A stretch of DNA of 40,786 nt from Acidimicrobiaceae bacterium (GTDB taxonomy: Bacteria; Actinomycetota; Acidimicrobiia; Acidimicrobiales; RAAP-2). The DNA is taken from assembly GCA_003168075.1 (NCBI GenBank), contig PMTL01000089.1, positions 26,115-66,900 on the forward strand, read 5' to 3'. The notes under the pieces are model-generated. The model was not told the origin of the DNA. It ran no database searches and saw only the letters and a list, made by a program, of their open reading frames with translations. Every line of letters starts with the position of its first letter. Position 1 is the first letter of the stretch. The translations under genes and the position numbers were made by a program. This document shows positions 1 through 26,451 of this stretch, piece by piece.

Positions 1-182
1 GGCTCGACGAGGACGATTCGCCTCACATTTCTGCGAGAGAAATGTGCCAGTTCCTCGCGACGACTTTTCAATTGTGGCGACGAGCGTGCGTAGAATGACG
101 CCTGTGCTCCAGCACTTCGCAGTCGATTTGCGGGTATCTCCATGCTGAGTGAAGACCCGTCGCGTGGCGACGTAAACCACTC
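1..182. other. Leader region of the FGGY kinase gene, no gene seen
   Basis: No convincing coding sequence is visible. The stretch holds a 23-bp perfect palindrome (24-46, listed separately) and then about 135 bp of upstream sequence before the GTG start at 183. No clear Shine-Dalgarno sequence precedes that GTG, so the exact start of the kinase is supported mainly by the immediate N-terminal nucleotide-binding motif. Confidence 0.6.
24..46. promoter_or_regulatory. Palindromic operator candidate, site 1
   Basis: Two perfect 9-bp arms, CACATTTCT and AGAAATGTG, flank the spacer GCGAG. The core is ATTTC-N7-GAAAT centred on base 35, 148 bp upstream of the FGGY kinase start. The same core geometry recurs at 5119-5135 and 7523-7545 in intergenic regions of the same catabolic cluster. 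A 23-bp two-fold symmetric site with about 12 bp between half-site centres is typical of dimeric helix-turn-helix regulators. It is not followed by a T tract, so a terminator is less likely. The regulator is not in the window. Confidence 0.6.
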
Positions 183-1658
183 GTGACGACGTATCTCGGA
201 ATTGACGTTGGAACGTCCGCCACGCGAGTGGTGCTACTCGGTGACGACGGTTCAATCATCGCGACGACGTCGGGTTCGTACGAGACCGTGCGCGCGGCGT
301 CCGGCGTCGTCGAACAGAACCCGACAGACTGGACCGACGCACTGGCCCACGCGCTGGCGTCGATGCCGGAACTGGCGTCACACCCTCCCACCGCTATTGG
401 TTTATGCGGTCAGACGCCCACGGTGGTCGCGGTGGATGACCGGGGCCGACCCACCCGAAACGCTCTGACGTGGCAAGACGGTCGCGCCTCAGCCGAGGCC
501 CTCGAGTTAGCGGAGCGCTTCGGCGACCCGGCGTCATTGGTCGGCACCGAACTCCCGTGGTCGGCGGCCAACATGCCCGCCAAGCTCCTGTGGTTGACTC
601 GTCACGAGCCCGAACTGCGGGCCCAGACACGTACGATTCTCCAGCCCAAGGACTACATCGGTCTGGAGCTCACGGGCAGTTTGCTGTCGGACCCCTGGTC
701 GTCCAAGGGACTTTGCCGTGTCACCGACGGCGCTCCCCTGGCTGACGTACTGGACGCCTGCGGATGGCCAACGGCTGTGTGTCCGCCCACGGCACCACCT
801 TGGGCACTGCGCGGGATCGTCAGCGTGACGGCGGCCGAGCGTTACGGCCTGCGCGAGGGGACTCCCGTCACCGTCGGGGCCAGCGACGCGCTCTCCGAGA
901 TGATTGCATCGGGCAGCTTCGCTCGATCGAGTGCCTTCGTCTTCAGCGGCACGTCGTCGATCGTCGGAACGACAGTTGACGACGATCGTGTTCGGGTCAC
1001 GGGGCTCTTCAGCGTGCCCACAACGTGCGCGCCGACGCCCCTTCTCTACGGTCCGACGCAGTCTGGGGGGGCAGCCCTCATGTGGGTCGCGCGATTGCTC
1101 GGGTGCGAGGTTGACGAAGTCCTGGCTTTGGCGGCTGCGTCGGGCCCTTCGTGGCCGATGTTCGTACCGTATCTCGCAGGGGAACGCGCGCCGCTGTGGG
1201 ACCTCGACGTTCGCGCTCTCTTCCTCGGTGTTGACGAGAACCACGGTCGAGCCGAGATCGCGATGTCCGTCGTCACGGGCGTCTTTTTGGCGGCGCGACA
1301 CGTGCTGACCCTCATCGAAGAAGCCACTCATCGAGAACTGAGCGACGTCGAAGTTGTCGGACGCGGCGTGCGCAATCACGACTGGGAGACGGTAGCGCGT
1401 CAAACACTTGGTCTAACGTTGCGACTCCACGATGACTCCGACATGTCGGCGCGCGGTGCGGCCATGCTGGCTCTGGCCTTGGACGGGACAACCGTCGTCG
1501 ACGCGAGTCGTCGACTCAGCGCCGAGAGCCGACTGGTGCGCCCTCAATCGCGCGAAGTGGAATCGGCGCGACGGTTGCTCGAGCGTTACCGCCAAGCGAG
1601 CGACCAGGGAGTGCAGTGGCGCCACTACGAGTCGGAGTCACCGCACTCAGTCTCATAA
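183..1658 (+). CDS. FGGY-family carbohydrate kinase, xylulokinase-like
   Basis: A 491-residue sugar kinase of the FGGY (hexokinase/Hsp70/actin fold) superfamily, which phosphorylates an open-chain sugar or polyol with ATP in the cytoplasm. The N-terminal phosphate-binding loop GIDVGTS is at residues 6-12, GLCGQ at 73-77 and TWQDGRA at 96-102 match XylB-like sugar-binding positions, and GASDALSE at 232-239 carries the likely catalytic base Asp235. YLAGERAPLW follows near residue 335. Length is normal for xylulokinases (about 480-500). GTG start, no clear ribosome binding site. It is convergent with the FAH-family gene, with a 31-bp gap, and sits at the edge of a sugar-acid cluster, with a palindromic operator candidate upstream. 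Substrate (xylulose, ribulose, gluconate-like) cannot be decided from sequence alone. Confidence 0.85.
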   Translation: MTTYLGIDVGTSATRVVLLGDDGSIIATTSGSYETVRAASGVVEQNPTDWTDALAHALASMPELASHPPTAIGLCGQTPTVVAVDDRGRPTRNALTWQDGRASAEALELAERFGDPASLVGTELPWSAANMPAKLLWLTRHEPELRAQTRTILQPKDYIGLELTGSLLSDPWSSKGLCRVTDGAPLADVLDACGWPTAVCPPTAPPWALRGIVSVTAAERYGLREGTPVTVGASDALSEMIASGSFARSSAFVFSGTSSIVGTTVDDDRVRVTGLFSVPTTCAPTPLLYGPTQSGGAALMWVARLLGCEVDEVLALAAASGPSWPMFVPYLAGERAPLWDLDVRALFLGVDENHGRAEIAMSVVTGVFLAARHVLTLIEEATHRELSDVEVVGRGVRNHDWETVARQTLGLTLRLHDDSDMSARGAAMLALALDGTTVVDASRRLSAESRLVRPQSREVESARRLLERYRQASDQGVQWRHYESESPHSVS

Positions 1659-1689
1659 CAACTCTCGTCACTCGTGAGCGCCGAGAATT

Positions 1690-2571
1690 CTACGACGCCA
1701 CAACGAGATTGGTCAGTTCACCGATGGCGTCGATGGACACCGTCATGGTGTCGCCGTCCTTCAAGTAGATCGGTGGTTTCATGCCCAACGCGACTCCCGA
1801 CGGGGTCCCAGTGGCGATGATGTCACCGGGTTCGAGCGTGATCGCCGCGGAGATATGAGCAATCAATTCCGCTACCGGTGTGATCATCAGGGAGCATGAC
1901 GCGTCTTGGCGCAGTTCGCCATTGACGTACGTGCGAATCGTCATCGACTCAATGGGCGGCGCCGAGTGCGCATCGAGCACGACGGGACCGAGAGGAGCGA
2001 ACGTGTCGAGTGACTTCCCGCGAATCCACTGAGCCTCGGCGATTTGTAGGTCCCGGGCTGACACGTCATTGATCACCGTAAATCCTCCAATAGCCGATAG
2101 TGCATCGTCGGCACCCACGCCCGAGGTGCGCCGCCCGATGACGACGGCGAGTTCCCCCTCGTAATCGAGTTCTTTCGTGATCGACGGGAGCCGCACGGCT
2201 TCGCGATGTCCAACGAGACAGTTGGGAAATTTCGCGAAGAGCACGATGCGCTCAGGGCGTGTGCCACCACTCTCGGTGATGTGATCCATGTAATTCAGCC
2301 CGACACAGACGATCTTGCTGGGGCGACGAACCGGTGGAGCGAAGCGAGCCTCTTCATTCACAATCGAGGTCTGCGCGTCAGGCGACAGTTCGCGCAGGTC
2401 GTCCAGGGCCCCGCCACCGAGGGCGTACAGCTCGCCGACGTCACGTAATCCTTCGAGGTGAGAAAGCCCCGCGGATCGTGCGAGTGCGTCCACCGACGCG
2501 AAGCCGTCGGACGTCTGGAGATGTAACGCGCTATCGTCACCCTGTCCAACGCGCAATGCCGCCAATCTCAT
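1690..2571 (-). CDS. Fumarylacetoacetate hydrolase (FAH) family protein
   Basis: A 293-residue protein of the FAH superfamily, whose members hydrolyse or dehydrate 2,4-diketo or 2-keto-3-deoxy acids using a divalent metal. The N-terminal third is the small accessory domain; the catalytic core begins near VCVGLNYMDH (about residue 88) and continues through LDYEGELAVVIGRR (metal-ligand glutamates, about 137-150), DVSARDLQ and GTPSGV near 260. A purine-rich Shine-Dalgarno (AGGAGA) lies 7-8 nt before ATG 2571. Last gene of the leftward unit with mannonate dehydratase and an epimerase. In known L-rhamnose and L-fucose non-phosphorylating routes such a protein cleaves 2,4-diketo-3-deoxy-aldonates to pyruvate and a hydroxyacid; other relatives are 2-keto-3-deoxy-arabinonate dehydratases or ureidoglycolate-lyase-like proteins. 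Family certain, substrate inferred. Confidence 0.85.
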   Translation of the reverse strand: MRLAALRVGQGDDSALHLQTSDGFASVDALARSAGLSHLEGLRDVGELYALGGGALDDLRELSPDAQTSIVNEEARFAPPVRRPSKIVCVGLNYMDHITESGGTRPERIVLFAKFPNCLVGHREAVRLPSITKELDYEGELAVVIGRRTSGVGADDALSAIGGFTVINDVSARDLQIAEAQWIRGKSLDTFAPLGPVVLDAHSAPPIESMTIRTYVNGELRQDASCSLMITPVAELIAHISAAITLEPGDIIATGTPSGVALGMKPPIYLKDGDTMTVSIDAIGELTNLVVAS

Positions 2572-2652
2572 GTACTCTTCTCCTTCTCGTCTCGGATAAC
2601 GACGACGCTCAACACCGCGGCGATGCCGTCCAATAACCCCTCAGACTCTCGT

Positions 2653-3690
2653 TTACTGATACGCCGCCTCGCGCAACCCGGTCATGTAACCAATGGCGTA
2701 CAACCGACCCAGCGTCGAGTAGCCGAACGACGAGTTCGAGTCCCCCTCGAGGGCGGGCACGTGGTCGGGACGAATCACACCTTCGAATCCGATGTCGGCG
2801 TACGCGCGCATGCATTCGAGCATGTCGGTCGGTCCCTCATCGTGAAACGTCTCCACGAACTTCTCGCGCGTCCCGCGAACGTCACGGAAATGCGCAAAGA
2901 AGATGCGTCCGTCGCGTCCGAGTCGACGAATGAGTGTCGGCACGTCGTCAGTCATCAACGCGAAGTTGCCCTGGCAAAAGGTGATGCCACTCTGAGAACT
3001 GGGCACGATGTCCAACATTCTCTCGTACGCTTCGGGACTGCCCATAATGCGCGGCACGCCACGAACATAGGGAATGGGAGGGTCGTCGGGGTGAAGCGCG
3101 AGGCGTACACCCGCTTCTTCGGCCACCGGCACGACCGCGCGGAGGAAGTATTCGAGTCCCTCCCACAGTTGTTCGTGAGTGACCGAGCCTTCTTCAATCA
3201 TCTTGGGGGCGGCCAACATGACGTCATTGTCGTAACCCGACGTCAACGCACCTCCGCGCAGGACCTCGTTGTTCGAGGTGCGGGCCCACGGGATAATGGC
3301 GACCCAGTTGTAGCACAAGGTTCCAATCCCCAGGCGCCCCATGGCCCGAATCTGGTCCGTGACCCATTCAATGGCTTCGTCACGACCGGGTCCGTTGAGG
3401 CGAATGGCGTCCATCGGCGCAGTGTCCTCCAACACCGACAGTTCGAGTCCGTAGTCGCGGTACTTCTCCTGCATCCACGTCAGAGCGGGCAGGTCCCACG
3501 GGCGTTCACCCTCCGGGGCCACCTCGTAGGGCGTCGGGGTGTAGACCTGCGAACCTTCACTCTTGGGCCAGCGCCACTGCTGTTCAGCCCCGTCGAGCAA
3601 GCTCACCACTTCATCGACACCCGCCTGCTTGACCAGCCGCCACAGGGGTGACGGCGTCGGCTCCAGCAGTTCTGAGATGTTCAACATCAT
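2653..3690 (-). CDS. uxuA: Mannonate dehydratase
   Basis: A 345-residue TIM-barrel enzyme of the UxuA type, which dehydrates D-mannonate to 2-keto-3-deoxy-D-gluconate with Mn(II). The family signatures are visible in order: LALHPDDPP (His200), TFCQGNFA (Cys239), FFAHFRDVRG (His267), ETFHDEGPTDM and VIRPDHVP (Asp309), which together supply the metal site. Slightly shorter than the 390-residue E. coli enzyme but near the shorter Gram-positive form. Two consecutive ATG codons (3690 and 3687) follow AAAGGAG; the second has the better spacing. It lies between the epimerase and the FAH protein on the same strand, gaps about 70-80 bp. The product fits the PfkB-type (KDG-kinase-like) gene at the far end of the cluster. 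A different related substrate cannot be excluded. Confidence 0.9.
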   Translation of the reverse strand: MMLNISELLEPTPSPLWRLVKQAGVDEVVSLLDGAEQQWRWPKSEGSQVYTPTPYEVAPEGERPWDLPALTWMQEKYRDYGLELSVLEDTAPMDAIRLNGPGRDEAIEWVTDQIRAMGRLGIGTLCYNWVAIIPWARTSNNEVLRGGALTSGYDNDVMLAAPKMIEEGSVTHEQLWEGLEYFLRAVVPVAEEAGVRLALHPDDPPIPYVRGVPRIMGSPEAYERMLDIVPSSQSGITFCQGNFALMTDDVPTLIRRLGRDGRIFFAHFRDVRGTREKFVETFHDEGPTDMLECMRAYADIGFEGVIRPDHVPALEGDSNSSFGYSTLGRLYAIGYMTGLREAAYQ

Positions 3691-3760
3691 CTTTCTCCTT
3701 TCGAGGTGACGGGCTGAGGACGCAACCCGCCAGTCATTACGAGTCGAAATCTTTCCTGCA

Positions 3761-4747
3761 TCACGACGGCGACGAGCTCAAGACACCATCGGCCACGGCG
3801 CGACGGAAGTGTTCGATAGTGGCCCCCACACCATCTTCGAGAGAGGTGTTAGCCACCGGACCAATGACGTCGCCAAGAGCCGGCGACGAAAGCAGGGCCG
3901 GCGCCGAAATGGGTTTGGTCTCCCAGCTCAGCAATCCCGCGGCCTCGGGCAGTAATTTTTCGATGAGGGCGACCAGTTGGGCCACGCCGACGCGACGACC
4001 GGGGACATTGAGCACGAGGGCGTCGCCCGAACCGGCCGCAGCTCGTGCTGACTCGATGAATGCTCTCGCACAATCTGGAGCGTAGGTCAGCAGCATGTTG
4101 CCGCCAAACTTGAATTTGAAGGGTTCGCCTTGGACGGCCGCCAAGATCGCCTTGGTGGCGTCTGACGTCATTCCCTGGTCGCGACCAGGCCCGTAGACGA
4201 TGAAAGGACGAAGGCCGATGGAGCCGATGCCGTTGTTCAGCGAATAGACCCGAGCCGTACCCTCGTTCGCCACCTTGTACACGCCATAGTGCGTATCGGG
4301 CATCACCGGCGAGACGTCTCCGACAACTCCACCGGAGTAGGCCGAACTGGCCCCGAACACCGCCGCGCTACTGGCGTAGGCCAAACCGATGCGTCGGTCG
4401 GCGGCGCGCACGGCGTCAAAGACATTGACGTTGCCCACGACGTTCACCATCGCCCCGAGTGGGGGATTGGCGGCGCAGAAGGGGACCTGCAATCCGGCCA
4501 GGTGAACGATGTGGGTGATGTCGAACTCTTGCACAATGCGCGCAACTTCGGTCGTCGCGGTCACGTCGAGGGGAACGAAGCTCACCTCATCAGTGTGCGG
4601 ATGTGACAACAGGCGAAAGCGCCGAAGATCCTCGCTGACGTCACTGGCAATGACGTCAACACCCTCATCGAGTAGTAAACGAATGGACCAGGCACCGATG
4701 CAGCCCGCCGCACCAGTCACCAGGAATCGTTCCTTTTCTTCATTCAT
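3761..4747 (-). CDS. NAD-dependent epimerase/dehydratase (extended SDR)
   Basis: A 328-residue extended short-chain dehydrogenase with the Rossmann motif TGAAGCIG at residues 11-18 and the catalytic Ser127, Tyr154 and Lys158 (SSAAV, YGVYK). ATG 4747 is preferred because GAGGAG lies 5 nt upstream; a GTG six bases earlier overlaps that ribosome binding site. It is first in the leftward unit with mannonate dehydratase and the FAH protein. Families of this type include uronate dehydrogenases, sugar-nucleotide epimerases and sugar dehydrogenases. Next to uxuA, oxidation or epimerisation of a free sugar or uronate is the likely role rather than nucleotide-sugar synthesis, but this is inference from context. 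Confidence 0.8.
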   Translation of the reverse strand: MNEEKERFLVTGAAGCIGAWSIRLLLDEGVDVIASDVSEDLRRFRLLSHPHTDEVSFVPLDVTATTEVARIVQEFDITHIVHLAGLQVPFCAANPPLGAMVNVVGNVNVFDAVRAADRRIGLAYASSAAVFGASSAYSGGVVGDVSPVMPDTHYGVYKVANEGTARVYSLNNGIGSIGLRPFIVYGPGRDQGMTSDATKAILAAVQGEPFKFKFGGNMLLTYAPDCARAFIESARAAAGSGDALVLNVPGRRVGVAQLVALIEKLLPEAAGLLSWETKPISAPALLSSPALGDVIGPVANTSLEDGVGATIEHFRRAVADGVLSSSPS

Positions 4748-5643
4748 TGACACTCCTCTTTACTTGCTGATCCGTGCGCGGCCAATAAAGTTGATCGCAG
4801 TCCGCGACTCTCGTGTCGAGGATGCGCCGGGGTCACTGGTGCTGATCCTGAGGTCACCCGGGACCCGGCCGAGAATTGATTCATCTCGGACGTCGTCTCG
4901 TCATTGCGGTTCAGGTTGAGTCCCGCGGATCCTCGCGAGAAATGCGAATTACTCTGGCGCACGACCTCACGCACCTAGAAATATCGACGCAATACTTACG
5001 GTGAAAAATAAATCGACCCACGCGGGGACCAACTCTCCCGCGACGGTCTCGTCAGCCGCCTCCCCTGCCGCCCCACAAATCACTATGCCCCCCATAGATT
5101 CACAACAACACGTACCGGATTTCACTTCACGAAATTATTATTCGCTCTAGCAGTACGCTATTTCATTCATCATAACACGGTGGACGAATCGCATCCATTG
5201 CTTCGCCCCAATCAAATTTTCGATGGTACCACGTTGCATGATCACACCACACCTCGCGTCAGGCCGAAGAAAAAGAGTGTCTGGCCATCTCGCGGAGGGC
5301 CATCGCGATTCATCACTGCGCCACCTGACGTCGCCTCCGTTCGAGTTCGACGAGAGAGTAGTCATCGTTATAAATGGATTCGTGAAAGTGAGTGACTGAT
5401 CCATCGCGCAAGAATCGTCTTTGGGGGCTCGGAGCCACGAGCAACCTGGAGAATGGGAGGTACACAGGATGCTCATGGCCCCGAGAGAGGTGAGAGCCCT
5501 CGCGTGCGGGCTCTGCGATCGTCGTCAATAGTCCCGGTAGAACTGTCTGACCAGAACTCGTGGCGCGTATATGAGCGCCGAGCGAGTGCTCGAGCACTAA
5601 CGGGCCGGAGAGGAATTGTCGGACTCAGCACGAGTTTTGCCTT
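4748..5643. other. 890-bp intergenic region upstream of the uxuA unit
   Basis: No ORF here looks coding: the short frames lack family motifs, ribosome binding sites and consistent codon bias. The region includes the palindrome at 5119-5135, an AT-richer patch at about 4975-5020 (promoter-like for the leftward unit), and a small inverted repeat, CCGAGA and TCTCGG, at 4869-4889. The remainder (about 5180-5640) shows nothing I can assign; it may be a decayed gene or long regulatory DNA. Confidence 0.5.
5119..5135. promoter_or_regulatory. Palindromic operator candidate, site 2
   Basis: ATTTC and GAAAT arms are separated by the 7-nt spacer ACTTCAC, the same core and spacing as sites at 24-46 and 7523-7545. 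It lies about 380 bp upstream of the epimerase start, in the only long intergenic region feeding the leftward uxuA unit. The symmetric part is shorter than at the other two sites (17 against 23 bp), so this is the weakest of the three. Confidence 0.45.
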
Positions 5644-6459
5644 CTACGCTGAATCGCTTGATGCACTGGGGGCGACCAAGGAGATGCCCGCCAGAGCACC
5701 GCCGTCGACTCGTAGGTCCGCCCCGGTAACGAACGAGGACAAGGTGCTCACCAAGAACAGAATCGAATCGGCAATCTCGCGAGGCTCACCGACACGACCC
5801 AGTGGATGGCCCATCCCCCACTCAGCAATGACCCGATCAGGATTGTCGGGATCAATGCTGCGGGCCGACTCTCTAAGCATCGGTGTGTCGACGGATCCCG
5901 GACAAACGGAGTTAACACGAATATTCTCGGCGGCGTAATCGACCGCCATCGCTCTAGTCATCGCGACGATAGCGCCCTTGCTGGCGGTATAGGCCACGAC
6001 GTTTTTCTGACTCGCAATTGCCTGGCCGGACGACACGTTCACGATTGAACCACCGCCGTTGATGCGCATCAGTGGTACTGCGTGTTTGACCGCCAAGAAC
6101 ATGCCCCGAAGATTGACGTTGAGCACCTCGTCCCACGTCTGCACCGACGTCGTCTCGGCGGTACCGTACCGTTGGATTCCCACTGAGTTAACCAACGCAC
6201 TCAGCCGACCTCGACGTCGCGACACATCATCAAAGAACTTCTTGACCTCCTCGGGATTCGCGACGTCGACCGTGGACCCGCGGACGTCATATCCCCGATC
6301 AACCAACTCTTTGGCCACGGCATCGTTGGCACTCGAGTCCACCGAGAAGAACTCAACGATTGAGCCGTTTTCGGCGAAGCACTCGACGACCGCTCGACCG
6401 ATTCCAGAACTGCCACCGGCGACGACGGTCACTGCGCCACTGACTAGCTGATTGGACAT
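5644..6459 (-). CDS. Short-chain dehydrogenase/reductase (classical SDR)
   Basis: A 271-residue classical SDR that oxidises or reduces a hydroxyl/keto group with NAD(P). The cofactor motif GGSSGIGR is near residues 15-22, NSVG replaces the usual NNAG, and the catalytic Ser and YTASK motif follow near residues 145-162; a PGSVDTPM segment and a C-terminal VDGGALAG are typical. The start at 6459 is chosen because GGAGG lies 4 nt upstream; an in-frame ATG at 6474 overlaps the stop of the preceding hydratase (ATGA), so translation is probably coupled either way. In sugar-acid clusters such SDRs often oxidise 2-keto-3-deoxy acids at C4 or act on the free sugar. Substrate not determined. Confidence 0.85.
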   Translation of the reverse strand: MSNQLVSGAVTVVAGGSSGIGRAVVECFAENGSIVEFFSVDSSANDAVAKELVDRGYDVRGSTVDVANPEEVKKFFDDVSRRRGRLSALVNSVGIQRYGTAETTSVQTWDEVLNVNLRGMFLAVKHAVPLMRINGGGSIVNVSSGQAIASQKNVVAYTASKGAIVAMTRAMAVDYAAENIRVNSVCPGSVDTPMLRESARSIDPDNPDRVIAEWGMGHPLGRVGEPREIADSILFLVSTLSSFVTGADLRVDGGALAGISLVAPSASSDSA

Positions 6460-6470
6460 GTTTCCTCCGC

Positions 6471-7346
6471 TCATTGAAACTCCACTTGAACAAATCCGAG
6501 AGCTCCAAAATCCGCGCTCACCACGTCACCCGGAGCCGCGAAGCAGTGGCCCGTGCAGGTACCGGTGCTGACGACCTCGCCCGCGGCCACGGACCGGTCA
6601 TGCGACCGAGCCCAATTGATCATCCACGTGAGGCTCGTGACGGGATGACCCATCGCCGCGCTTCCCCGGCCCGACTTGATATAGAACTCATTGAGGTATA
6701 AGTCCATTCCCGCGTGTATGAGATCTATGGAACGCCACTCACTGATCTTCGTTCCTTCGATGAACGCAGCGCCGCCTCCATTGTCCAGGCAGGAGCCGTA
6801 GTATCCGCTCGCTCCGTACCAATCGAGAAAGACGGTGTCGCCAATCTCCAGGGCCGGGAAGAGCGATTCAATCCCGTCGGCGACTTCGGACTGCGAGTAG
6901 GGCTCATCGCGGACAGCAAAATCACGACCCAATTGGAAGGCGAACTCGCACTCGACGTTGCGAAAGTTGATGAAGAACTCCGGCCCGAGAGCGACGCCAT
7001 TAGCGAAGATCGTGTCACGATAGAACCGTCCCGGAGAGGGACTCGGAAGACCCTCGGCGCGGCGAATTTCATCGCTCGCGGCTCCGACCTTCCATCCGGC
7101 CCCTTCTCGACCCAGTCTCTCGTCGAGTCCAAGGATCACCTTCTCGACGGAGGACCAGTCACGAGTCCTGATTGCCTCGGGGAGATCAACCGCGCGGCGC
7201 AGCAAGCGACCAGCCGCGATGATGTCGACCACCTGATCAATTTCGCTGGCGGTCAGGGGCGTCATCCTCTTGCACGAAAGAGCGCCCGATGGTGGCGTCT
7301 CTCCGTACAGGAAGCGCCCGCGCACTCCCAAATTGCTCGACGTCAT
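6471..7346 (-). CDS. 2-keto-4-pentenoate hydratase (MhpD) family protein
   Basis: The FAH-fold catalytic part resembles MhpD/4-oxalocrotonate decarboxylase proteins: GWKVGAASDE, FRNVECEFAFQLGRD (metal-binding glutamates), SLFPALEIGD and a C-terminal GEVVSTGTCTGHCF. These enzymes hydrate or decarboxylate 2-keto acids with a divalent metal. Family-like sequence starts only at an ATG at 7265 (MTPLTASE), where AAGAGG abuts the codon too closely; the ATG at 7346 has GAGG with good spacing and is used here. An in-frame ATG at 7406 is also possible. It overlaps the SDR gene by 4 bp and is therefore co-translated with it. A palindromic operator candidate lies about 180 bp upstream. Its occurrence in a sugar-acid cluster rather than an aromatic meta-cleavage pathway is unusual. 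Confidence 0.75.
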   Translation of the reverse strand: MTSSNLGVRGRFLYGETPPSGALSCKRMTPLTASEIDQVVDIIAAGRLLRRAVDLPEAIRTRDWSSVEKVILGLDERLGREGAGWKVGAASDEIRRAEGLPSPSPGRFYRDTIFANGVALGPEFFINFRNVECEFAFQLGRDFAVRDEPYSQSEVADGIESLFPALEIGDTVFLDWYGASGYYGSCLDNGGGAAFIEGTKISEWRSIDLIHAGMDLYLNEFYIKSGRGSAAMGHPVTSLTWMINWARSHDRSVAAGEVVSTGTCTGHCFAAPGDVVSADFGALGFVQVEFQ

Positions 7347-7754
7347 TCCACCCTCGCGCTGGAGTGTCGCGCGCACCTCATCAACTCGTGAGGACCGTGT
7401 TGACATCACGCCCCACTTCTCTCGAGACGTGCGATGACGCCACACATCGAACTGCACGTGAGGCCGCTCGCCCCAAGTCCCACGATCACTGCGCCCCCCA
7501 TCGGTTGAAATCTATCTGCGTCATTGTTTCTTATAAAGAAACAATTATTTTACTCAGACATATATCATTTCAATTTCAAGTGAAAGTAGCACAGCCACCC
7601 GAACCGCGCAAGAGCCATCGGGGATTCACCCGAACGCTGCTGGGGACGTCGACGACGATTCTGCCGTGGCGTGTCACCGCCAGTACTTCGCACGTCGTGA
7701 CGTCGTCACTGTGATGGTGTTGAACTCGACGATCTCAGGCGCATCAACAAATTG
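7347..7754. other. Intergenic region upstream of the hydratase-SDR pair
   Basis: No independent gene seen. It is conspicuously AT-rich at 7520-7590 and contains the palindrome 7523-7545, which overlaps a leftward TATAAG -10-like hexamer. A second imperfect symmetric element, TTTCA-AG-TGAAA, is at about 7573-7586. The part nearest 7755 lies downstream of the next gene and shows no clear terminator. Confidence 0.5.
7523..7545. promoter_or_regulatory. Palindromic operator candidate, site 3
   Basis: Perfect 10-bp arms ATTGTTTCTT and AAGAAACAAT surround the spacer ATA; the core GTTTC-N7-GAAAC has the same geometry as sites 24-46 and 5119-5135, and sites 1 and 3 share TTTCT-N5-AGAAA exactly. On the leftward strand it overlaps TATAAG, a plausible -10 hexamer, so binding would block transcription of the hydratase-SDR pair. 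Confidence 0.65.
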
Positions 7755-8579: not shown

Positions 8580-8758
8580 TACGTCCTCCCCACTACAGGT
8601 AGTGGCCCCCACAGCGCGCCACTTCATTCACACACACGTGCGACGGTCACTTCAAGTTCAACAGAATTCCGCATTTCCACGAAGATTCTTGGCCCCTCGT
8701 CCCAGTAGAACCTCTGACCGTGACGATGAGGCGCCATGTCGTCGCGTCAGCACCGTCG

Positions 8759-11272: not shown

Positions 11273-13027
11273 CTACGACATCGCGTCGAGGGGCGTATCA
11301 GCTTCGCCATGTGAATGCGAGTTCTCCACCTCATCGTCCCGAGAATCCAGGCCCGCCAACACTGCTCCGTGCGACGCAGAGCCGACGAGTAGTGCGTAGT
11401 GCGCCAGTGCGCCAGTTCGCACGTATGGTTCGTGCGTCGTCGACGGACGGCTCTCGAGGTCCACGCCGACGACATTGATACTCCTCCCGGGAACATCGAT
11501 CTCAATCATGTCGCCCTCGCGAAGCTTGCCGATCGGACCGCCGACGGCCGCTTCGGGGCATACGTGACCCACCATCAATCCCCTCGTCGCACCCGAGAAT
11601 CTGCCGTCGGTCACCAGCGCGACGCTGTCACCGAGTCCCTCGCCCATGATTGCCGAGGTCACTTGCAACATCTCGCGCATTCCGGGACCGCCCCGGGGCC
11701 CCTCGTGTCGAACGACTACCACGTCGCCGGGCACGATTCGCCGATTGAGGACCGCACTGATGGCGTCCTCTTCACACTCAAAGATCCGAGCGGGACCGCT
11801 GTGGGCCACCAGTCCGTGGTGGGCGATCTTGGTCACCGAGCCCTCGGGCGCCAGGTTGCCCCACAGCACCGCCAGACTTCCGCCGGTGGAGAATGGCACG
11901 GCAATCGTGGAGACAACACGTTGGTCGGGTCGCTCGACGGCCGATTGACAGGCTTCGGCCAACGACTGGCCCGTGATAGTGAGGGCCGAGCCGTCCATAT
12001 GGCCACTCTCAATGAGACGCCGCAGAACGATGGCCGTCCCACCAGCCTCGTGCAGGGCGTTTGCGGCGTACCTCCCACTGGGCTTGAGATCGCAGATGAG
12101 CGGAGTCCGTCGTGAGATGGCGTCGAAATCCGAGAGCGAGAAGTCGATGCGCGCCTCGTGCGCCATAGCCAAGAGATGCAGCACCGCATTGGTCGAACCA
12201 CCCGAGGCCGCCACCGCCGCGGTGGCATTCTCGAAGGCGGGTCGGGTCAGGATCTTGCTCGGTCGCCTGTCGGCCGCGAGCGCGTCCAACGCGATCGAAC
12301 CCAGTTCCTGGGACAACGTGACTTTAGTGGGATCCATTGCGGGAACGCTGTTGAAGCCGACGGGCGAAAGACCAATAGCCTCGAGCACCATCGACATGGT
12401 GTTGGCGGTGTACTGACCCCCGCACGCACCCGCTCCCGGGCACGCGACCTCTTCGAGCAACTCCAATTCCTCCAGGGTCATGGTCCCACCGGCCACTTTT
12501 CCCACGGCTTCGTAGATGTCCCCGGAAGCGACGTCGTTACCCCGAAAGCAACCGGGAAGTACTGTTCCGCTGTAGGCGAGTACGGCCGGGCGATCCAGGC
12601 GGGCGACCGCCATTGCCGCTGCGGGACTGGTTTTGTCACAGCCGGTGATACATATCATCGCGTCGAAATAGTGCCCGCGCGCCACGAGCTCAATGGAGTC
12701 AGCAATCACCTCGCGACTGATCAGCGAGGCACGCATTCCCGCAGTCCCCATGACGATGCCATCGGCGATAGCGATGGTCCCGAATTCCATGGGCGTGCCG
12801 CCGCTGCGCGAGACACCTTTCTTGGCCGCCGCCGCGAGATCACGATGATTCAAATTACAGGGAGACGTATCCGTCCAACAATGCGCGACACCAATAATCG
12901 GGCGGTTGAGGTCCTCTTGGGAGTAGCCGATATTACGAAGATACGACCGAGCGGGCGCCCGCTCCATGCCTTCAAGAAGTGTCCGACTGACCCGCCGTGC
13001 GTGTTCCGGATCCGCATTCTCCGCCAC
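11273..13027 (-). CDS. IlvD/Edd family dehydratase (dihydroxy-acid or sugar-acid)
   Basis: A 584-residue Fe-S dehydratase. The three cluster cysteines are Cys57 ([10 protein letters not shown]), Cys130 ([10 protein letters not shown]) and Cys202 ([14 protein letters not shown]), as in the [2Fe-2S] members; [12 protein letters not shown] and [11 protein letters not shown] near 265 are family signatures. GTG start at 13027 with GGGGG 4-5 nt upstream. The sequence strongly resembles IlvD, which makes branched-chain keto acids, and it carries IlvD-like CNxN/H and CGG motifs. Its position between a PfkB-type kinase and an Ldh2 oxidoreductase makes a role as aldonate dehydratase (gluconate, galactonate, pentonate) more plausible, yielding 2-keto-3-deoxy acids. 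No other ilv gene is nearby. Family certain, substrate open. Confidence 0.85.
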
Positions 13028-13261
13028 AATGCCCCCAATTCAGACCAAAAAATTCCATTAAAAGAAAAAACTATTCCGCTCATCCATAGTCATTTTCATT
13101 TTTTTTCGACCCTACCACCCACGTCGCGTATCCGCAAGCAGACACCCGACCCGTACGGATCGATCGACCATGCAACGGACCCGGAGCATCACGTGAATCA
13201 CTATTCGTATCGGCATCGATCACGACCTGGCGGCAATTTCACGTGGCCGGCAACACCAACG
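13028..13261. other. Intergenic region upstream of the IlvD/Edd gene
   Basis: No gene seen. The first 80 bp are AT-rich and include a degenerate copy (13052-13068, ATTCC-N7-GAAAA) of the cluster palindrome, matching 8 of 10 core positions but in an A-rich context, so weak. The rest holds no repeat or terminator that I can support. Confidence 0.35.
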
Positions 13262-14203
13262 TCAGCGAAGAGTGGTGCCTGATTCGCGAGACAGTAATTC
13301 GAGGTCGTCGCGTCGTGGCAAGCATTCCCAATCTCCGAAACGGCTCGCGGCGAAGGCACCAGTGACGCAACCCATTTTCAAGCGACCCGCGGAATCCTCT
13401 CCGTCGAGGGCGGCCACTAAATACCCCGCGACGAAGGCGTCGCCCGCACCGACGGGATCGACGGCACGAACACTGACGGCGGGTTCGTCGAGAATCCCCG
13501 AGGACGTGATCGACGTCGCGCCTCGTAATCCTCGTTTGATGACGACTTCGCGTCGTCCGTCGTCAGCCAGTGCCGTGACATCTCTCATTTCGTCATTTCC
13601 CAAGACAAAGAGCTCATCCTCACCTGCGAAGATGATGTCTGCGAGATGAGCCAGGGGTCGAATCACGGACGCGGCCTCTTCCTCGGACCACAGGCGCGAA
13701 CGGAAGTTGAAATCTAGCGAGACGATGACGCCCGACGCCCGAGCGATCTGCACTGCGTGATGAACCGCAGACCTCGCGGTGTCGCTGAGCGCCAAAGTGA
13801 TTCCCGTGACGTGCAAGATGCGCGACGACTCAATGAGTTTCGCATCCAGATCTTCGGGACAGAGCGCGGAGCCGGCGTAGCCGCTGCGGTAGTAGCTGAC
13901 ACGCACCATGTTCTCGGCACTTCTTTCCTTGAACATCAGGGCCGTTTGTCGCGTCTCGTCAACGACAGAACTCGCTACGTCAACTCCCTCGGCTCGGAGA
14001 GTCTTGAGAATCAATTGACCAAACTCGTCGTCGCCAATCCGTCCTATCCAGGAGCTGCTTCGTCCCAACCGGCAAAATCCGATGCCAACATTGGATTCGG
14101 CTCCGGCAATAGAGACTTCGAGATTTCTCATGTCGCGAAGTCGTCCAACGAACGGTGTCGAAAAAAGTGCAGTGGTCTCACCGATTGTCACTAGGTCACT
14201 CAA
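13262..14203 (-). CDS. PfkB-family carbohydrate kinase, KDG-kinase-like
   Basis: A 313-residue ribokinase-fold kinase. The N-terminal GAESNVGIGFCRLG (substrate-binding and PfkB signature 1) and the C-terminal AVDPVGAGDAFVAGYL (signature 2, catalytic Asp near residue 255) are clear, and SLDFNFRSRLW resembles the 2-keto-3-deoxygluconate kinase motif with DxNxR. I place the start at TTG 14203 because AAAGGAA lies 7 nt upstream; an in-frame GTG at 14224 would precede that ribosome binding site. ATP-dependent phosphorylation of KDG, the mannonate dehydratase product, fits the context; fructokinase-like specificity is the alternative. The corresponding KDPG aldolase is not in the window. Confidence 0.8.
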   Translation of the reverse strand: MSDLVTIGETTALFSTPFVGRLRDMRNLEVSIAGAESNVGIGFCRLGRSSSWIGRIGDDEFGQLILKTLRAEGVDVASSVVDETRQTALMFKERSAENMVRVSYYRSGYAGSALCPEDLDAKLIESSRILHVTGITLALSDTARSAVHHAVQIARASGVIVSLDFNFRSRLWSEEEAASVIRPLAHLADIIFAGEDELFVLGNDEMRDVTALADDGRREVVIKRGLRGATSITSSGILDEPAVSVRAVDPVGAGDAFVAGYLVAALDGEDSAGRLKMGCVTGAFAASRFGDWECLPRRDDLELLSRESGTTLR

Positions 14204-14546
14204 GGTGCTTTTCCTTTCAGGCACAAATTCCGAAGCGAACTACATTTTGCCCGCGCCGTCGACCAAATATTGCCACTCAGTCGCTCGACGCCCTGGTGGG
14301 TACCCACTCGAGCCACTGCTGGTGACGGTCTATCACCTCCCTCAGTGTCTCGAGCGAAGATCGATGTCCCTGTCGGCGGTTCGACAGCGAATCGTCACGC
14401 CCTTATTGAATTGCTGAAACGCCATCCGCGTCGAAGAGCGAGGCCGACGACCACGGGACTACGGAGGGCTACTCGCTCCGACCCGTCACGACACGCAGAG
14501 GGGAGTTGAAGTAACTCTCAGCACTGGAGACAGTGATTTTCTCTCG
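14204..14546. other. Intergenic region between the cytochrome b and PfkB genes
   Basis: No gene supported: overlapping short frames on both strands lack motifs and ribosome binding sites. The AAAGGAA ribosome binding site of the kinase lies at its left edge. GAGTT and AACTC arms at 14503-14517 form a small hairpin just past the end of the leftward cytochrome b gene, a weak terminator candidate without a T run. Nothing else recognised. Confidence 0.45.
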
Positions 14547-25479: not shown

Positions 25480-26451
25480 ATGGACTACATCACTCTGGGC
25501 CACACCGGCCTCAAGGTTTCACGCATCACTCTGGGTTGCATGAGTTACGGCGCAACGGATCGCGGACGTCAGACCTGGTCGATAGACCGCGACGACGCAT
25601 TCCCCTTCTTTCGCCAGGCCCTCGACGCCGGCATCAATTTCTTCGACACTGCCAACGTCTACTCCGACGGCACGTCTGAAGAGATAACCGGGGCCGCCCT
25701 ATTATCCATGGTCCCGCGCGAGGAAGTGGTCATCGCTACCAAGGTGAATGGTCGGATGCACCCCGGCGCCAACGGTCAGGGGCTGTCGCGCAAATCTATC
25801 TTGAGCGAGATCGACAACAGTCTGCGCCGCCTCGGAACGGACTATGTCGACTTGTACCAGATACACCGGTGGGACAACGAGACGCCAATCGAGGAGACAC
25901 TCGAAGCGCTGCACGACGTCGTCCGCGCGGGTAAGGCGCGCTACATCGGAGCGTCGTCGATGTACGCGTGGCAATTCGCTCAGGCCCTGTACGTCGCGGA
26001 ATTGCACGGATGGACTCGTTTCGTCTCAATGCAGAACTATTACAACCTCCTCTACCGCGAGGAAGAGCGCGAGATGCTCCCTCTTTGCGTCGACCAGGGC
26101 ATCGGCGTCATACCGTGGAGTCCCCTCGCGCGGGGGCGCCTCACGCGCCCCTGGGACTCGTCGACACCGCGATCGGACAGCGACGACTTCGGTCGCGCTT
26201 TATATGGCGACGTGGACAAGCCCGTAGTGGACGCAGTCCTTCGCGTCGCCAGCGCCCGTGGCGTAGCCCCGGCCCAGATCGCCCTGGCATGGGTGCTCTC
26301 GAAGTCGGTGATCACCAGTCCCATCGTCGGCGCCACCAAGGTCCATCACCTCGACGACGCGGTGGGCGCCTTGAAGATCCATCTCGACGACGCGGAAATC
26401 ACTGCGCTCGAGGAATCGTACCGTCCTCACTCCGTCGTGGGATTTCAGTAG
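25480..26451 (+). CDS. Aldo/keto reductase
   Basis: A 323-residue TIM-barrel NAD(P)H-dependent reductase of the AKR superfamily. The catalytic tetrad is visible: Asp56 (FFDTANVYSDG), Tyr61, Lys88 (VVIATKVNG) and His129 (DLYQIHRWD). The C-terminal ITSPIVGATKVHHLDDAVGAL is the NADP-binding region. The type resembles YajO/Tas-like general aldehyde reductases. Leaderless promoter, divergent from the phosphoribosyltransferase gene. Forty bases separate it from the LLM oxidoreductase gene, which has its own promoter-like hexamers. Physiological substrate unknown. Confidence 0.92.
   Translation: MDYITLGHTGLKVSRITLGCMSYGATDRGRQTWSIDRDDAFPFFRQALDAGINFFDTANVYSDGTSEEITGAALLSMVPREEVVIATKVNGRMHPGANGQGLSRKSILSEIDNSLRRLGTDYVDLYQIHRWDNETPIEETLEALHDVVRAGKARYIGASSMYAWQFAQALYVAELHGWTRFVSMQNYYNLLYREEEREMLPLCVDQGIGVIPWSPLARGRLTRPWDSSTPRSDSDDFGRALYGDVDKPVVDAVLRVASARGVAPAQIALAWVLSKSVITSPIVGATKVHHLDDAVGALKIHLDDAEITALEESYRPHSVVGFQ

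Follow-up and report, generated by a model that had tools for sequence, protein, structure and literature searches.

Transcriptional regulators of the IclR family have been grouped by their binding sites, and in the survey of Suvorova and Gelfand (2021, PMC8222616) group 1 sites follow the consensus WTTYCRYW3RYGRAAW, with the half-sites swapped relative to the KdgR-type sites of group 2. The survey also describes sites made of three boxes for PcaU and for 32 predicted orthologous groups. Here we report on palindromes with the core TTYC-N7-GRAA in a 40,786-nucleotide stretch of DNA (hereafter the window), which spans positions 26,115 to 66,900 of the 69 kb contig PMTL01000089.1 (C27) in the 2.98 Mb draft genome of an Acidimicrobiaceae bacterium (GCA_003168075.1, referred to as G000). 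We consider these palindromes to be predicted operators of an IclR-family regulator that is encoded on the same contig and would control genes of sugar-acid breakdown, and we give this reading a probability of roughly 0.8. The kind of control is already known from IclR group 1, and judged by sequence this set of regulator and operators is most likely a new example of it; among the papers searched, none joins Acidimicrobi-, IclR and regulon.

An initial annotation of the window, made from its letters, had pointed to three copies of RTTTC-N7-GAAAY with exact 7-nt spacing, found nowhere else in its first 14 kb and expected by chance well below once in 40 kb. Our scan returns just those three. The TTTC-N7-GAAA core lies at 28-42, 5120-5134 and 7527-7541 and nowhere else in the 40,786 bases, compared to a mean of 0.29 copies over 100 dinucleotide shuffles, none of which reached three. 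When one mismatch to RTTTC-N7-GAAAY is allowed the same three sites are again the only ones, but 2.82 are expected, so that the exact matches alone exceed chance. Site 1 (24-46, core 27-43, ATTTC-N7-GAAAT) lies 148 nt upstream of the start of an FGGY-family carbohydrate kinase, site 2 (5119-5135, ATTTC-N7-GAAAT) lies 374 nt upstream of a minus-strand gene of the NAD-dependent epimerase/dehydratase family, and site 3 (7523-7545, core 7526-7542, GTTTC-N7-GAAAC) lies upstream of a minus-strand operon of an FAA-hydrolase-family gene (FAH2) and a short-chain dehydrogenase (SDR); none of the sites is assigned to a strand. All three are intergenic and, as had been noticed, each stands before a different unit. 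The description of sites 1 and 3 as perfect 23-bp palindromes did not hold, the pairing in an 11-pair palindrome being 9 of 11 for site 1 and 10 of 11 for site 3, with 5 of 11 for site 2. The core is better written TTYC-N7-GRAA. A fourth operator-like site (ATTCC-N7-GAAAA, 13052-13068, likewise without strand) is found 93 nt upstream of the start of a dihydroxy-acid/sugar-acid dehydratase gene of the IlvD/EDD family (EDD in the following) and was overlooked at first because its left half is TTCC.

Across the cluster on C27, seven TTYC-N7-GRAA sites fall in 18 intergenic regions, compared to 0.35 expected from shuffled regions, and spacing 7 alone is enriched, with zero or one match in these regions at each of the other spacings from 1 to 15. 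Coding and intergenic calls here and below are those of our own codon-based gene caller. The seven sites precede the genes for the IclR-family protein (iclR), KDPG aldolase, CoA transferase/UxuA2, FGGY kinase, epimerase, FAH2 and EDD; the distances to predicted starts, in ascending order, are 63, 77, 93, 148, 156, 158 and 374 nt. An eighth intergenic copy at C27 8582 (8582-8596 of stretch L012) lies downstream of iclR without a clear target gene, and a copy at C27 47180 is coding. Single sites such as that at C27 8582 could be due to chance.

Genome-wide, TTTC-N7-GAAA has 31 copies compared to 13 of a reversed control. All six copies on C27 are intergenic, and the 25 copies off C27 comprise 16 in predicted genes and nine in intergenic DNA. 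Exact TTTCT-N5-AGAAA has three copies in the whole genome, at C27 23606, 26142 and 33641, a span of about 10 kb; with one mismatch it shows no enrichment genome-wide (33 versus 32 in the reversed control). WTTYC-N7-GRAAW is found at 28 places in G000 (8 in the reversed control), seven of them on C27. The genome scan that the initial annotation had proposed shows copies beyond the cluster as well, with a concentration inside it: the pattern is real and local to the cluster, though not exclusive to it. One WTTYC-N7-GRAAW match outside the cluster, at C18 1884, was set aside as a regulon member; its neighbour gene looks, by eye, like one for a PHA synthase.

Conservation in orthologous clusters had been named as a further test, and the motif recurs there. 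The comparison covered 41 foreign intergenic regions (7,308 bp) of four other genomes, from contigs C1 and C19 of G108, from G074, and from L054 and L058, where G108 and G074 are relatives of the same family, G525 comes from a search of the order, and L-numbers denote stretches or loci (L012 and L013 in G000, L045 and L047 in G108, L054 and L167 as contigs of G525). These regions, which were hand-picked from homology maps, include only part of the intergenic stretches of L047, L054 and L058 and leave out L057, hold 12 TTYC-N7-GRAA sites compared to 0.41 expected from shuffles, and no other spacing from 1 to 15 has more than two matches. Taken by set, the observed count was reached in 0 (G108 C1), 6 (G108 C19), 5 (G074) and 0 (L054 with L058) of 1000 shuffles. 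The cluster on G108 C1 keeps the gene order of G000 and has sites before iclR (two), KDPG aldolase, CoA transferase, FGGY kinase (159 nt upstream) and FAH2, together with a one-mismatch site upstream of the EDD orthologue. A second, smaller cluster in G108 (L047 9806-16869) carries a paralogous iclR' that has sites on both flanks. Four of the seven TTTC-N7-GAAA copies in the G108 genome and all three of its WTTYC-N7-GRAAW copies fall in these two IclR-bearing clusters, the reversed control for the latter motif likewise numbering three. G074 has six WTTYC-N7-GRAAW matches at five places, an overlapping pair being counted once (control 0), and two of the five places are in its cluster. The genome scan of G525 has no WTTYC-N7-GRAAW; its contig L054 has one TTYC-N7-GRAA, with non-W flanks, upstream of iclR. 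The site at L058 lies downstream of iclR; the gene caller placed it inside a long frame, and we counted it as intergenic on the basis of the homology map, which has iclR matching in two pieces.

A matrix was built from the 12 foreign sites and run on C27, with the chance level taken from 20 simulated contigs. Its top ten positions are all intergenic, with the EDD site first, the copy at C27 8582 third, and sites 2, 1 and 3 fourth, fifth and tenth, respectively; the core part of the score is not independent because the training sites were chosen by their core. Two weak second sites, at 5160-5176 in the window (rank 12) and at L013 9646-9662 (rank 9), sit at a -35-like element; the distance is 41 bp in each case, to site 2 for the former and to the CoA-transferase site for the latter.

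The initial annotation had suggested looking for a GntR, IclR or LacI-family gene left of the window, and an IclR-family gene is found there, at C27 8720-9616 on the minus strand, 16.5 kb from the window. Its product of 298 aa has the domains HTH_IclR (Pfam E 9e-10) and IclR_C (E 1e-25) and stays below the NCBIfam cutoffs for KdgR (115 versus 275 bits), BhcR (140.7 versus 350), PcaR/PcaU and IclR proper. In G000 and G108 alike, the predicted start of iclR has a site 63 nt upstream of it. In a search of 150 genomes of the family, the listed IclR matches of at least 60% identity are in G000, G108 (two copies) and G074 only, and of 172 family genomes three have UxuA1, an enzyme gene of the cluster; these are also the three in which the search of 150 located IclR. 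A search of the order (397 genomes, E up to 1e-30) placed IclR in G000 and in G525, which has both IclR and FAH2; G108 and G074 are missing from the matches in the samples of the order, presumably because neither was drawn. A scan of GTDB kept 80 loci, six of which (in five genomes) match at 56% or above and the others at 36% or below, and the genomes in which orthologues of at least 56% came to light here are all drafts and all actinobacterial. The fact that UxuA1 and IclR occur in the same three family genomes suggests that the regulator was most likely inherited together with its enzymes. We sought enzyme clusters without this IclR, but every genome in which UxuA1 or FAH2 was detected has the regulator too, which left no negative-control cluster.

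With the described systems set beside this locus, the closest likeness is to IclR group 1 (types WTT-11-AAW and GTT-11-AAC, outer motif WTTYC-N7-GRAAW or GTTYC-N7-GRAAC; PMC8222616), which shares the TTYC-N7-GRAA core, the odd length and the position upstream of catabolic and regulator genes. The sites differ from the published group in that most are of the WTT type though the genes are sugar-acid genes, and in that the inner bases are asymmetric. In the 19 sites used for flank and third-box counts, all of which have the core by selection, the left flank is always A, T or G and the right flank always A, T or C, though the two flanks do not always match. KdgR of gamma-proteobacteria, which belongs to group 2, has the protein family, the pathway area and a similar half-site sequence in common with the system here, but its half-sites follow the opposite order, the main palindrome of group 2 being TGRAACA-N1-2-TGTTYCA. 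The swap between the groups explains why the sites had been described as inside out relative to the KdgR box; that arrangement stands, and the type is a published one, group 1. A reading of the sites as KdgR boxes was rejected because the arrangement and the protein score both fail: GRAA-Nk-TTYC is found zero to two times at every k in G000, and zero or one time in the relatives except for four at k=6.

A scan for sigma-70-like promoters in the first 8.7 kb of the window gave three, compared to 2.2 expected, which is no more than chance, and therefore their position alone is notable. Two of the three adjoin sites 2 and 3: ATGAAA-N18-AATAAT (5137-5166, minus strand) and TTGAAA-N18-AATAAT (7544-7573, minus strand) each end 2 nt before the first half-site, and ATGAAA-N18-AATAGT (13070-13099, minus strand, coordinates hand-converted from the contig) ends 2 nt before the fourth site. 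We tested this register at 21 sites, two of which have one mismatch and are not among the 19 above. At 8 of the 21, exactly 2 nt separate the end of a -10-like NANNNT from the operator, WTGRAA stands 18 nt before the -10-like element at 7 and turned up a single time over the other registers tested, and both elements are present at 6 (CoA transferase, epimerase, FAH2 and EDD in G000; FAH2 and EDD in G108), one of the six being a one-mismatch site. As an operator 2 nt after a -10-like element would cover the transcription start, the register fits repression, for which the sequence evidence is moderate. The initial annotation had proposed a dimeric repressor encoded outside the window; the regulon and the outside regulator are supported, and repression is what the promoter geometry suggests.

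A further TTYC box (at least three of four bases) stands at N6 on one side at 10 of the 19 sites, compared to 3.2 expected in flank shuffles (p 0.0008). Over the 15 offsets tested, k=1, 5 and 7 gave six sites each, and the offset k=6 was seen in the data first and then matched to the published spacing. At site 2 the possible third box is TTCG (5141-5144, no strand, three of the four bases of TTYC), six nt past the site and overlapping the -10-like element. The extra box at N6, a spacing that group 2 allows (PMC8222616), is like that of three-box IclR sites, and unlike it in that it overlaps the -10-like element at several sites. It may for that reason be promoter sequence, and since the third box overlaps the promoter register, the present data do not separate the two. 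It is doubtful, though conceivable, that the operators are compound, with a group 1 palindrome just after the -10, a third box that covers the -10 (GRAA-N6-TTYC) and, at -35, a GRAA half-site lying 41 bp, or about four DNA turns, from its matching half. The sequence evidence for the three-box reading is weak. If true, a tetramer could clamp the promoter from -35 to the transcription start via both dimer arrangements proposed for the family. Since at several sites a possible third box falls on the -10-like element, the cluster also provides a small set of natural sites on which the published proposal of two dimer arrangements in IclR proteins could be tested.

For the predicted regulon itself the sequence evidence is strong. 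We infer that a dimer of the IclR-family protein would bind TTYC-N7-GRAA and that, once bound at several of the enzyme operons, it would lie over the transcription start and obstruct RNA polymerase. Its release may be brought about by an intermediate of sugar-acid breakdown, for which a 2-keto-3-deoxy sugar acid is our guess from the pathway. The position of the site upstream of iclR suggests self-regulation. A likely regulator, operator and regulon can in this way be assigned to a sugar-acid cluster of uncultured actinobacteria.

The same operators and the same protein could instead serve activation, or both activation and repression, according to the position of each site. IclR-family members can activate, one solved relative carries the name transcriptional activator, and two sites, those of FGGY and KDPG aldolase, are placed well upstream and without the 2-nt register; the 6 of 21 operators that begin 2 nt after a -10-like element suit blocking, and we regard activation as unlikely. 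Smaller still is the probability that the sites belong to a different dimeric regulator encoded elsewhere, whether of LysR type, GntR, LacI or another IclR paralogue. TTC-N7-GAA also fits the T-N11-A shape of LysR-type sites, and the G000 genome has four further IclR-family matches, three of them listed at 25-28%, which also weigh against our assignment to the IclR of C27. However, no LysR, GntR or LacI domain was found in the 50 C27 proteins scanned (61 genes predicted; LysR was not searched for in the rest of the genome), and the LysR reading was dropped as no such gene is among the scanned cluster proteins. The sites also recur with this IclR in the second cluster of G108, in L058 and in G074, and their core equals the group 1 consensus (PMC8222616). 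That the palindromes arose by chance in A+T-rich intergenic DNA would fit the abundance of single TTTC-N7-GAAA copies, many of them coding, and the one-mismatch copies, which do not exceed chance. This explanation is highly improbable: the 7 and 12 sites against 0.35 and 0.41 in shuffled regions, and their recurrence before orthologous genes, already contradict it where the cluster is taken together.

Further observations weigh against operators of the C27 IclR. Agreement of the inner seven bases with RYW3RY is partial, the column counts out of 19 being R 13, Y 15, W 13, W 6, W 16, R 15 and Y 12. In the survey, sugar-acid genes are under-represented in WTT-11-AAW regulons and frequent in GTT-11-AAC ones, and sites as far upstream as the 374 nt of site 2 are very rare (PMC8222616). 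The 2-nt promoter register is missing not only at the FGGY and KDPG-aldolase sites but also at the iclR site, and site 2 has no counterpart before the epimerase gene in G108. None of the four strict TTTC-N7-GAAA copies in the G074 genome is in its cluster, where only TTYC-N7-GRAA sites are found, and no site is present on L167, the contig of G525 that carries FAH2. At L057 (IclR 56%), the 10 kb covered contain no cluster gene, and the only core match, a low-scoring one, lies 6 kb from iclR.

The genes of the cluster in the window were assigned mainly by Pfam. The FGGY-family kinase (183-1658) is on the plus strand. The minus strand carries UxuA1, of the UxuA family of mannonate dehydratases (2653-3690; also NCBIfam NF003027, 209 bits, cutoff 191), the epimerase-family gene (3761-4753), the SDR (5644-6474), FAH2 (6471-7457), the IlvD/EDD dehydratase (11273-13027; also NCBIfam) and a PfkB-family kinase (13262-14224), whose best NCBIfam match, a 2-keto-3-deoxy-sugar-acid kinase, is below cutoff. 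In all, the cluster on the contig has three FAA-hydrolase-family genes and two UxuA-family genes, FAH2 and UxuA1 among them, together with Ldh2-type and iron-type dehydrogenases, and left of the window C27 encodes the KDPG aldolase, an ABC transporter and CoA transferases. By its sequence, FAH2 more likely starts at the ATG at 7406. A short leader frame of 27 to 31 codons (7406-7501, minus strand), with a G run near its start, precedes this ATG, and its stop shares the A of the probable FAH2 start. A stretch like the G run of the leader, ATGGGGGGC, follows site 2 (about 5080-5095).

Two near-identical one-mismatch copies, TTTC-N7-GAAC, lie between ECH and CoA-transferase III genes in G000 (L013 4663-4677) and in G108 (L045 13353-13367). 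Just before the window start, at L013 12104-12123 (the last nine bases of which are window 1-9), two undetermined bases are flanked on both sides by the same nine bases, and the sequence around the window start looks like a joint between two overlapping contigs.

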